From Candidatus Bathyarchaeota archaeon (lineage in GTDB: Archaea; Thermoproteota; Bathyarchaeia; Bathyarchaeales; Bathycorpusculaceae): a DNA stretch of 64,000 nucleotides. Of this stretch, positions 45,877 to 50,355 are shown in pieces. A program made the position numbers and the translations under genes. Within the stretch, counting starts at the first letter, position 1; every line of letters begins with the position of its first letter. The notes below the pieces were generated by a model. That model searched no databases and had not been told where the DNA came from. It worked only from the letters and a program-made list of their open reading frames with translations. The stretch is from the NCBI GenBank assembly GCA_018396955.1, contig JAGTQI010000002.1:1-64000 (forward strand), read 5' to 3'.

Positions 45877-46545
45877 TTATTTTTGAGTTATTTTCTCCAG
45901 CAAGTCAACAACTCTGGCTTCTTCGTGTTCTGGCTTATGCTGAAGCATCTCATAAATCTGCAAGGTTTGCTCAGTAGCCTTCCTCCAAGTAAAATAGTGC
46001 AACACCCTTTTCCTCGCCATTCTTCCCCACCTCTTAGCTCTTTCAGAGTCGCATAAAACCTTCTTTATGCCCCACGCAACGCCGGCTGGGTTTCCACCGT
46101 TAACGTGTATGCCGTTCTGGTCTGAGCCGAAGGGCACAACTAGCTCTCTGAAGCCTACAACATCCTGAGCGCCAACAACTATCGGTTTTTCCATAACATT
46201 GCTTCTAGGCTTACTATGCCGAAGGGTTTACGGTGGATAAAAACAAAAGTCCGCCGCATAGTGCAATATGCGCTCTTTTACCGGAACAAAGTTGAATCTG
46301 CAAATAAGCTTGTCGCTTATTCCAAGCCTAATGGCTCAACAATGACGTTTTTGTTGTTTTCCCTTGCCCAAAATAACAAACTTGGTGTTTTGGTATTCTG
46401 CCAAGATTATTGGCATAGCTTGAACAAGGTTTATAACGTTCTTTAACCACGTCAGCCTTCCAAGAAACAGAACCCTTTTTCATCGGGTTTAATGCCATAC
46501 CGTGGCTAATTTTTTCAATAGATACGTTATTCACCTATGTTTTAA
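45877..46545 (-). pseudogene. GT4-family glycosyltransferase, C-terminal-domain remnant with frameshifts
   Basis: RVLFLGRLTWLKNVINLVQAMPIILAEYQNTKFVILGKGKQQ (about 46330-46470) then MEKPIVVGAQDVVGFRELVVPFGSDQNGIHVNGGNPAGVAWGIKKVLCDSERAKRWGRMARKRVLHYFTWRKATEQTLQIYE in another frame. Confidence 0.8.
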
Positions 46546-46556
46546 AGAAGGGAACT

Positions 46557-48209
46557 ATGAAAGTAAAAATAGTTATTGAATTCAAAATCCGAATCCAATC
46601 TAAACTTGGCAAACTAGAAATAAAACATAAGCGAAAACAAATAACAACAGAGGCTAAAGGGTTGACGGACATAGTTTTCGTGTTTGAAGTACACCAACCC
46701 CACAGGTTAAGGAAGAACTATTTCTGGGAAAACAGGCTCTTCAAACGCTTAAGAAAGGAGGAACTCTTCAACTACTATTTTGACCATGAACTTGACAGGG
46801 AAATCTTTGAAAGGGCGTGCAAAAAATGCTACTTTCCATCAAACCAGATACTGCTAGACCTAATAGACAAGCATAAACGAGAGAAAAAACAGGTTAAAGT
46901 TTCCTTCAGCATTTCCGGAACCTTCCTCGAACAATGCGAAATGTTCAATAAAGACTTACTAGAATCCTTCAAACAACTTGCAGAAACGGGCTGTGTAGAA
47001 TTTCTAAGCCAAACATACTACCATTCTCTAGCAAGCCTCTACCCTGAAAGAGAAGAATTTATTGAACAAATAAAAATGCATAAACAAGCAGTAAGAGACT
47101 TATTGGGTTATACACCCCGAATCTTCGAAAACACAGAACTAATCTATAACAATGCCATTGCAAAAACAGCCGAAGAATTGGGCTTCATAGGAATTTTCAC
47201 TGAAGGAACAGAAAAAATACTCCATGAAAAGTCGCCCAACTACCTGTATAAGCCAAAGGGATGTAAAAAGATCAAAGTTCTCCTTAGAAACTACAAACTA
47301 ACGGACGATGTGGGTTTTAGGTTCTCCGCTAGATGGTGGAGTGAGTGGCCCCTAACAGCTGATAAATATGCAAGTTGGCTGGCAGCCACGCCGGGAGACT
47401 GCATAAACATATTTCCAGACTATGAAACCTTCGGGGAACACCACTGGCCGGAGACGGGTGTACACGAATTTTTGAGGCATCTTCCGAGGGAAATTTTGAA
47501 GTGGTGGCATCTCCGCATGGCGACGCCATCAGAGGTTATTGAAAAATATGAGGCTGTTGGAGAAATCGACGTGCCAGAGCTTGGTGGAACGGTTTCGTGG
47601 GCTGATTTAGAAAGGGATGCAAGCTGCTGGCTTGGAAACACGTTTCAATGGGCTTATCACACGTCTGTTAGGAGGCTTGAACCCATTGTTAAAGAGTCAG
47701 AAGATAAAGATTTTCTAAGGATGTGGCGTTACTTTCAAACAAGCGACCACCTATATTACATGTTCACAGCCGGCGGAGCTCCAGGCGAAGTTCATTCCTA
47801 CTTCAGTTACTTCAGCACTCCAGCAGATGCCTATGTAACGGCTCAAGCAGCAATTTTCGACTTCGAGAATCGCCTCCGCCTCGCAACAGCAACGGCCAAT
47901 GAGCCGTTTCTTTTCTATAAGGGCGTAGGGGAGGAAAATTATACTGGTGTAATGGCTTGGAGCCTTAAGGGGTTCATCAAAGCCCTACAAAAGGTCGAGA
48001 TAAAATCTATAGAGTTTCACAATAGTCGAGGCGACCTTGAAAAGTGGGCTGAACATTCGCTTCATGACAAGGTTTTGGCTGAAAAATTTAGGGAAATTAG
48101 ACTTTCAAAACTTAAGGGGCAAGCTTTAAGAAAAGCCTTAGCTGCAGCTGCCAAGGAGAGGTTTGACAAGTTATCACGTCAATTAAGGGCTGCAACAGAA
48201 TACTTTTAA
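46557..48209 (+). CDS. Glycoside hydrolase family 57 (alpha-amylase type)
   Basis: IVFVFEVHQPHRLRKNYFW, SGTFLEQCEMF, INIFPDYETFGEHHWPETGVHEFL, YYMFTAGGAPGEVHSYFS. True start may lie downstream of 46557. Confidence 0.92.
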   Translation: MKVKIVIEFKIRIQSKLGKLEIKHKRKQITTEAKGLTDIVFVFEVHQPHRLRKNYFWENRLFKRLRKEELFNYYFDHELDREIFERACKKCYFPSNQILLDLIDKHKREKKQVKVSFSISGTFLEQCEMFNKDLLESFKQLAETGCVEFLSQTYYHSLASLYPEREEFIEQIKMHKQAVRDLLGYTPRIFENTELIYNNAIAKTAEELGFIGIFTEGTEKILHEKSPNYLYKPKGCKKIKVLLRNYKLTDDVGFRFSARWWSEWPLTADKYASWLAATPGDCINIFPDYETFGEHHWPETGVHEFLRHLPREILKWWHLRMATPSEVIEKYEAVGEIDVPELGGTVSWADLERDASCWLGNTFQWAYHTSVRRLEPIVKESEDKDFLRMWRYFQTSDHLYYMFTAGGAPGEVHSYFSYFSTPADAYVTAQAAIFDFENRLRLATATANEPFLFYKGVGEENYTGVMAWSLKGFIKALQKVEIKSIEFHNSRGDLEKWAEHSLHDKVLAEKFREIRLSKLKGQALRKALAAAAKERFDKLSRQLRAATEYF

Positions 48210-48267: not shown

Positions 48268-48519
48268 TTGAGGGAGGATCTTCCAATCTCCGAGAAAATT
48301 CTGCAAACGCTCCATAACCTATGCGCAACAGCTCCAGATTTAGCGAGAAAAAGCGAAGAACTCGCCCAAGTCTTACAGTTGGATGCAACAGAGGTTGAAA
48401 AAATTCTAGACAGTTTTGGATGCGAGGGCTATGTGGAAAGTTTTGCTGACGACCAAGGGAAAAAGTGGTATTATCTTACTGGAAGGGGAATAATAAAAGT
48501 CTGCGCACTCTTCACTTAG
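48268..48519 (+). CDS. Small winged-helix-like protein
   Basis: SEELAQVLQLDATEVEKILDSFGCEGYVESFADDQGKKWYYLTGRG: HTH plus wing pattern; TTG start. Confidence 0.6.
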   Translation: MREDLPISEKILQTLHNLCATAPDLARKSEELAQVLQLDATEVEKILDSFGCEGYVESFADDQGKKWYYLTGRGIIKVCALFT

Positions 48520-48532
48520 TCGGCGGTAGCAA

Positions 48533-49165
48533 ATGCGAGTAATAATTTTTTCATGGGAGTACCCGCCAAGAACGGTTGGCGAACTTGCCGATTATGTTAA
48601 AGAGTTGGCAGTGCAGCTCGCCAAAAACAAGGTTGAAACCTACGTGGTTACCTATCATGATTATATGACTGGGGAGTTTGAGGAAAACGGCGTCAAAACT
48701 TACAGGGTGACAAACCCTGTTAAGACCCACATAAGTGTCCTTACTTGGGTTTTGACTCTAAACCAAGAAGTGGAGCGGGTCGCCGCCAACATATGCTATA
48801 AAGTGGGCGGACGTTTAGACCTAATAGATGTACAGGACTGGCATTTTATTCCAGCAGCGGTTACTTTGAAAAGGGCATTCAACATTCCCTTTGTCTATTC
48901 CATTGAGAGTTTAGAGGACCATCGCTCTCATGGTGCAAACTCGCCGTTTAATATGGCTATTAAGAGCATTGAGTGGCTGGGCATGTATGAGGCAAGCAAG
49001 GTTCTCGTGAAATCCGAGTGGATGGCAAGCGAAGTCATCAGGATCTATAAGGTTCCAGAAGCAAAAATAAAAATCGTCAAGCCCGGCTCTGATCGATGGC
49101 TTAAAACAATTTTAGAAGCCTACAAAAGCCTTAAGGGGGAACTCATGGAATGTCCAGTGAGTTAA
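48533..49165 (+). CDS. Half-length GT4/GT5-like protein (N-terminal GT-B Rossmann domain only)
   Basis: MRVIIFSWEYPPRTVGELADYVKELAVQLAKNKVETYVVTYHDYMTGEFEENGVKTYRV...LIDVQDWHFIPAAVTLKRAF...VKSEWMASEVIRIYKVPEAKIKIVKPGSDRW then stops; aligns to the N-terminal half of the next gene. Confidence 0.8.
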   Translation: MRVIIFSWEYPPRTVGELADYVKELAVQLAKNKVETYVVTYHDYMTGEFEENGVKTYRVTNPVKTHISVLTWVLTLNQEVERVAANICYKVGGRLDLIDVQDWHFIPAAVTLKRAFNIPFVYSIESLEDHRSHGANSPFNMAIKSIEWLGMYEASKVLVKSEWMASEVIRIYKVPEAKIKIVKPGSDRWLKTILEAYKSLKGELMECPVS

Positions 49166-50355
49166 GGGTTATGATGCTTACATGGGAGTTTCCGCCGAGA
49201 ATTATTGGCGGTATCTCACCCCACGTATATTACTTGTCAAAAAGTCTTGCAAAAAATGGTGTGAAAGTCTACGTTGTTACATGCGATTTTCCAGGCGCCC
49301 CTCAATATGAAACGCTGGACGGAGTTGAAGTTTATAGAATTGATTCTTACAAGAACCCCTCGCCTGATTTTGCAAGCTGGGTTTACTTGATGAATATGAA
49401 CATGCAGAAGGAGGCAGCATCCATTGTTAAAAAATTAGGCGGAGTTAACATTTTCCACGCTCACGACTGGCTTGTGGCAGACGCTGGGATAGGCCTAAAA
49501 CACGTTTTTAGGAAACCTCTTCTGGCTACCATTCATTCGACAGAGTATGGAAGGCGAAACGGCATCCACTCTGACTATGAGAGAATGATTCACGAGACGG
49601 AGGCTTGGCTCACCTATGAGGCTTGGAGGGTTATATGCTGCAGCAACTACATGGTTTCCCATGTAAAATGGGTTTTCGGGCTTCCACAAGACAAACTCAT
49701 AATGATTCCAAACGGCGTGGACGCAAAAGAATATGAAAGAAGCGGCGATGTTGACTTAAACCAGTTTAGGCGACGCTTCGCCTTGCCGGAGGAGAAAATT
49801 GTATTGTTTGTTGGGCGACTCGTCTATGAAAAGGGCATACACGTTCTCATCAGCGCAGTACCGAAGGTCTTAGAGAAAGTGAACGCAAAATTTGTCATAG
49901 TTGGAAACGGATACATGCAACAATCCTTATCGGAATACATAAGAAACATAGGATTGGCGCATAAAGTCATGTTTACAGGTTTTGTAGATGATGGGACGCT
50001 GCGGAATCTGCAAAAATGCGCCGACGTTTCAGTTGTCCCATCCATTTTTGAGCCTTTTGGAATCGTGGCGCTTGAGGCTATGGCGGCTAAAAGTCCGGTT
50101 GTGGTTTCGGATACTGGTGGCTTGTCAGAAATAGTTGAGCATGAAATAACTGGAGTTAAAGTTTATCCAAATAACCCAGACTCGCTGGCGTGGGGGATCA
50201 CAAAAGTTTTGCTTGATGAGAATTTGGCGAATAAGTTGAGGGAGAACGCTTACCGAAAAGTTGTTGAAAATTATAACTGGGAGAAGATAAGCCAGCAAAC
50301 AAGAAAAATTTATGAGAGCGTTTTAAGCGAGTATTCAAGGACTTTTTGGGCTTAG
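49150..50355 (+). CDS. GT4/GT5-family glycosyltransferase (glycogen synthase-like)
   Basis: LTWEFPPRIIGGISPHVYYLSKSLAKNGVKVYVVT, FHAHDWLVADAGIGLKH, IPNGVDAKEYE, FVGRLVYEKGIHVLISA, PSIFEPFGIVALEAMAAKSPVVVSDTGGLSEIVEH. Confidence 0.95.
   Translation: MSSELRVMMLTWEFPPRIIGGISPHVYYLSKSLAKNGVKVYVVTCDFPGAPQYETLDGVEVYRIDSYKNPSPDFASWVYLMNMNMQKEAASIVKKLGGVNIFHAHDWLVADAGIGLKHVFRKPLLATIHSTEYGRRNGIHSDYERMIHETEAWLTYEAWRVICCSNYMVSHVKWVFGLPQDKLIMIPNGVDAKEYERSGDVDLNQFRRRFALPEEKIVLFVGRLVYEKGIHVLISAVPKVLEKVNAKFVIVGNGYMQQSLSEYIRNIGLAHKVMFTGFVDDGTLRNLQKCADVSVVPSIFEPFGIVALEAMAAKSPVVVSDTGGLSEIVEHEITGVKVYPNNPDSLAWGITKVLLDENLANKLRENAYRKVVENYNWEKISQQTRKIYESVLSEYSRTFWA

Follow-up and report, generated by a model that had tools for sequence, protein, structure and literature searches.

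A conserved half-glycosyltransferase encoded together with a full-length GT4 paralogue in Bathyarchaeia

The half-glycosyltransferase described here is a real, ancient and conserved pseudoenzyme-type protein with a full-length partner. We analyzed a stretch of 64,000 nucleotides from a Candidatus Bathyarchaeota archaeon (contig JAGTQI010000002.1, positions 1 to 64,000; hereafter, the window), in which the gene for this protein, the half, overlaps that for a complete GT4 glycosyltransferase, the full enzyme. Genomes retain or lose the two genes jointly, and transfer between species has moved them as a pair. The half probably serves as a non-catalytic subunit of its GT4 neighbour and would be the product of an ancient duplication that lacks the second Rossmann domain.

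Domain content and donor site of the half

The half gene (positions 48533 to 49165 of the forward strand, which carries all features below unless stated otherwise) starts with ATG and encodes 210 residues, a GT-B N-terminal domain plus a C-terminal helix. The full gene (49150 to 50355), also starting with ATG, encodes 401 residues. Residues 1 to 187 of the half align with residues 5 to 191 of the full protein at 32% identity (pairwise alignment, E = 5e-31). In Pfam, the half matched N-domain families only (Glyco_transf_4, E = 9e-16, 58.8 bits against a cut-off of 28.5), and the full protein showed an additional match to Glycos_transf_1 (E = 5.5e-50). The C-terminal donor domain with its E-x7-E motif is absent from the half, as judged from the translation and the domain scan, and is present in the full protein, where E301 and E309 of the E301-x7-E309 motif are in place. 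An earlier note, made from the letters alone, had described a first Rossmann domain next to a full-length paralogue, with a 16-nt gene overlap; the alignment, the domain matches and the ORF coordinates all agree with that description.

The full protein aligned over its whole length with GlgM (PDB 6tvp), and all seven residues that we checked among the GlgM contacts to ADP-glucose (PMC7137382) are present: His129, Asn188, Arg223, Lys228, Glu301, Gly304 and Ile305 correspond to GlgM His109, Asn171, Arg207, Lys212, Glu289, Gly292 and Ile293, respectively. The full enzyme is complete and apparently catalytically competent. Its score against the GlgM model TIGR02149 was 186.9 bits, below the cut-off of 302.4, and it does not qualify as a GlgM equivalent.

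The AF2 model of the half (pLDDT 89.7, pTM 0.87) shows a compact Rossmann domain and, at residues 189 to 201, a confidently predicted tail helix; like the Glyco_transf_4 score, it identifies the protein as a GT4-type GT-B N-domain. The closest structures were the N-domains of MshA, GlgM and GlgA together with an engineered construct joining an N-domain to a C-terminal helix. The latter, sucrose-phosphate synthase 6ldq (residues 27 to 220 plus 406 to 426), has the architecture proposed for the half and gave a TM-score of 0.78, normalised to the 6ldq construct; it is a laboratory product, whereas the half is a natural protein. The tail helix (49097 to 49135), in which Tyr197 is invariant among 38 relatives, resembles the C-terminal crossover helix of the full enzyme: when a profile of the half tail was run along the full protein, the best two of ∼389 ungapped windows fell in the C-terminal helix. 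This match is suggestive only, because amphipathic helices resemble each other, but together with the modelled helix it lends weight to the earlier guess that the crossover helix was kept.

Several donor-site residues have been replaced in the half. In the remnant of the GG loop (residues 8 to 17, WEYPPRTVGE; 48554 to 48583) the second glycine has become Glu, Gln, Lys or Asp, and it is missing in every half member inspected. DVQDW (residues 99 to 103; 48827 to 48841) is the counterpart of HAHDW in the full enzyme, and His103 is changed to Asp in 38 of 38 close relatives. Glu125 (48905 to 48907) occupies the position of full-enzyme His129, equivalent to GlgM His109 and E. coli glycogen synthase His161. 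The changes quoted in the earlier note (GG to GE, HAHDW to DVQDW and IHSTEYGRR to IESLEDHRS) are thus all present, and the GG loop, His and Asn through which the N-domain of an active GT4 enzyme contacts the donor are not preserved in the half. The equivalent of His129 is Glu or Asp in crown-group halves only, and that of Asn188 is mostly Pro in the crown clade, to which the window's half belongs. Since His is kept in four deeper branches, loss of the domain apparently preceded its replacement. As read from the aligned sequences, the missing second domain and the lost second glycine are common to the whole half family, and the change of His to Glu is a later, crown-group event. Halves also retain W8, E9, P11, P12, G16, S126, E128 and R131, and acceptor-side motifs persist. 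Residues 61 to 82 (48713 to 48778), covering a loop and helix a2, carry a near-invariant, half-specific signature, NPVxxH...LTWxLTLNxExER.

Conservation and joint inheritance of the pair

The earlier note had proposed looking for the same pair in related genomes and had named a full-length gene at this place in relatives, or an elevated dN/dS, as grounds for abandoning its reading. When 61 related genomes were searched, almost every member of the window's family proved to have the half, as an open frame of ∼205 to 235 codons, usually immediately upstream of the same full enzyme. A profile search found the half in 83 of the 257 genomes of the class, and the named records that carry it are mostly Bathyarchaeota. 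Further families of the phylum have it too, namely, in six f50 genomes (36 to 39% identity to the window's half) and in G298. The pair is thus found in ∼80 Bathyarchaeia genomes and in other families, and relatives show a half where a full-length gene might have stood. In five close comparisons, dN/dS of the half was 0.06 to 0.16, near the 0.04 to 0.11 of the full enzyme. This recurrence across genomes and the low dN/dS exclude recent deletion and decay. The half nonetheless evolves faster than its neighbours, with a mean pairwise distance of 0.48 versus 0.28 for the full enzyme.

All 80 half-full pairs measured lie on the same strand with a gap of -23 to +10 nt, consistent with translational coupling. 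The commonest gap is -4 nt (34 of 80), and the -16 of the window occurs in 3 of 80. Two genomes contain two copies of the pair, G031 (L007 and L040) and G147 (L161 and L162); one of the G147 copies is fast-evolving in both genes.

In phylogenetic trees, the halves form one clade (100/100), as do their partner full enzymes (99/94 to 100/94). When 22 halves and 22 partners were placed in separate trees, the main groupings agreed and the deep branching largely matched: both trees contain f50 alone, L144 and L160 near f50, L159 with L200, and the Bathyarchaeia crown. L158 and several f1 branches are discordant or weakly supported between the two. Where the halves attach with respect to the partners and to bacterial enzymes is weakly supported (90/74), which makes any dating of the duplication uncertain.

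Presence and absence of the two genes are coupled. Full enzymes at least 52% identical to that of the window were only found alongside a half. Half-less sister families have a GT4 enzyme that is 42 to 48% identical to the window's, usually together with a GH57 gene and often followed by a gene like that for the 83-residue protein described below. None of the 14 half-less genomes of the window's family encodes an intact full enzyme: 13 gave no match to it at E ≤ 1e-60, and G121 has a fragment of residues 131 to 401 that begins at contig base 1, with its upstream neighbour beyond the contig. GH57 was likewise absent from the five of these genomes tested for it, so that the whole locus is gone in those five.

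A transfer of the pair was found in G040, of family f5, in which half and full stand alone beside a ribosomal-protein operon, with neither the 83-residue gene nor GH57 at the locus. S3, present in a single copy and located on this contig, shares 93% identity with that of a congener, versus 66 to 70% with f1, so the contig is genuinely f5. Both the half and the full enzyme cluster with f1 sequences in the tree, which indicates that they were acquired by transfer as a two-gene unit. Another G040 contig carries a GT4 enzyme of the half-less type and a GH57 gene. The half is thus tied genetically to an active partner in the obligate manner expected of a non-catalytic subunit, and gene linkage, trees that largely agree, absence of both genes together and their transfer as a unit support the earlier reading of a pseudoenzyme partner.

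Gene neighbourhood, proposed contact with the full enzyme and alternative explanations

The usual gene order is GH57, 83-residue protein, half, full. In the window, the GH57 gene (46557 to 48209) encodes an alpha-amylase-type protein with a DUF5752 C-terminus. Its ORF starts ∼35 codons before homology to relatives begins (46557 to 46661), and translation may in fact begin near 46662. The 83-residue protein (48268 to 48519), which precedes nearly all halves, looks winged-helix-like by eye and gave no match in a Pfam/NCBIfam scan. In the half-less lineages L041, L043-L045, L047-L049 and L201, a similar winged-helix gene usually lies directly after the GT4 gene rather than before it. On the reverse strand, positions 45877 to 46485 hold the remnant of a divergent GT gene, an apparent pseudogene: its C-terminal part is 75% identical to an intact 432-residue protein of G002, from the same genus, its N-terminal 228 residues are gone, and internal stops and frame damage are present. 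The window's genome encodes one GH57 and one GDE_C debranching-type gene; no phosphorylase match was found in it. An archaeal GT4-GH133-GH57 cluster has been described in a review, in which the GT4 activity is unproven (PMC11046441). Gene content makes a role of the locus in alpha-glucan (glycogen) metabolism likely.

To locate a possible contact, we counted full-enzyme positions with different conserved residues in paired and unpaired enzymes, or conserved in the paired ones only. They numbered 37 among the 186 N-domain positions and 16 among the 211 C-domain positions (P = 3.5e-4 by a Fisher test that ignores overall conservation and sequence relatedness). Many fall near the loop and helix a2 that match the signature segment of the half. 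GlgM dimerizes through a six-helix bundle of N-domain helices (PMC7137382), and Pyrococcus abyssi glycogen synthase is a trimer that oligomerizes through its N-domain (PMC11046441). Because of the differences between paired and unpaired enzymes and of these N-domain oligomers, a contact through the N-domains is our favoured model for how half and full would associate. An AlphaFold model of a fused half-full chain, for which the same-frame stop of L005 was read as glycine, gave a pTM of 0.63, about that expected from two unoriented units, and no confident interface; its alignment (L005, six similar relatives, unpaired half rows and C-domain rows) held 7 paired rows only and is hence weak. No natural fusion of half and full was found. 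A 615-residue frame in G324 that resembled one proved to be an upstream open frame, the half and full genes there being separate.

The half might instead partner GH57, for example as a subunit that handles glucan during branching or trimming. GH57 was present in 13 of 13 half-bearing genomes tested, and distances of the half covary best with those of GH57 (partial r of 0.54, controlled for neighbours, versus 0.36 for the full enzyme), so that rate covariation is not specific to the full enzyme. However, sister families have GH57 and no half, GH57 is inverted or elsewhere in several deeper half-bearing lineages, and it did not move with the half in G040; we therefore regard this partnership as improbable. 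Equally improbable is a role as regulator, in which the half would bind a sugar or a sugar phosphate and, with the 83-residue protein, control the operon. The position of that gene directly upstream of nearly all halves would fit such a sensor, but the gene also adjoins half-less GT4 enzymes, and the G040 pair has none at its locus.

A split enzyme, in which the half serves as the acceptor domain for the C-domain of the full protein and catalysis occurs across chains, would account for the acceptor-side motifs retained by the half and for the complete donor domain of its partner. We consider it just as unlikely, since the full protein has an intact N-domain of its own with the GlgM-equivalent residues, while the half is missing the GG loop, and crown-clade halves are missing the donor-contact His and Asn as well. 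Alg13/Alg14, in which each chain gives one half of the active site, is the model for such an arrangement; here, the full partner is complete. As for a degenerating pseudogene or an assembly artefact, the half is indeed shorter than its paralogue and a neighbouring GT gene is truly a pseudogene, but equal length and architecture in independent assemblies from dozens of genera, together with the low dN/dS, refute this explanation and leave it hardly any probability.

We thus favour a non-catalytic partner of the full enzyme. An ancient GT4 gene would have been duplicated and one copy would have lost the second, donor-binding Rossmann domain, most likely retaining the C-terminal crossover helix as a cap for the lone N-domain. 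The full protein would perform the chemistry, and the half most likely binds it N-domain to N-domain, as in GlgM dimers and P. abyssi trimers. The half would then contribute the acceptor-side surface that it has retained, which would probably receive an alpha-glucan and would position the substrate or tune activity, a regulatory or scaffold role such as the earlier note envisaged. We put at about even the chances that the two proteins form an obligate hetero-oligomer, a two-subunit GT4 alpha-glucan enzyme with the donor-site-less half as its acceptor-docking or regulatory subunit. The physical complex, the face used, the glucan ligand and the direction of the effect on activity are parts of this model that we infer.

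Relation to known systems and significance

GlgM, an alpha-maltose-1-phosphate synthase of family GT4 whose N-domain is among the best structural matches of the half, was described in its structure paper as a homodimer (PMC7137382); no truncated paralogue accompanies it there. Archaeal GlgA (GT5; P. abyssi, 2bis/3fro/3l01) is a single polypeptide with distant sequence similarity to the full protein (E about 1e-25). In the two-protein O-GlcNAc transferase GtfA/GtfB, catalysis falls to one protein and acceptor handling to the other (PMC6973325). Half and full would likewise form a two-protein glycosyltransferase; the GtfA/GtfB partners, however, make contact via DUF1975 and act on adhesins, whereas a Pfam scan of half and full showed GT domains only. 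GtfB is presumably not a bare N-domain, unlike the half. Our literature search, mostly outside subscription journals, found no description of a half enzyme of this kind. Non-catalytic glycosyltransferase partners are a known theme, of which the half-full pair is a new variant.

Little is known of glycogen metabolism in Bathyarchaeia, and a glycogen-synthase-like glycosyltransferase beside GH57 is here paired with an obligate, apparently non-catalytic half. The pair offers a way to ask if a GT-B N-domain on its own can function as a subunit, and what archaeal GT4 "glycogen synthase-like" enzymes produce. It is also compact, and nature supplies replicates of it in the form of paired and unpaired lineages, which suits it to studies of how an enzyme comes to depend on a pseudoenzyme paralogue.
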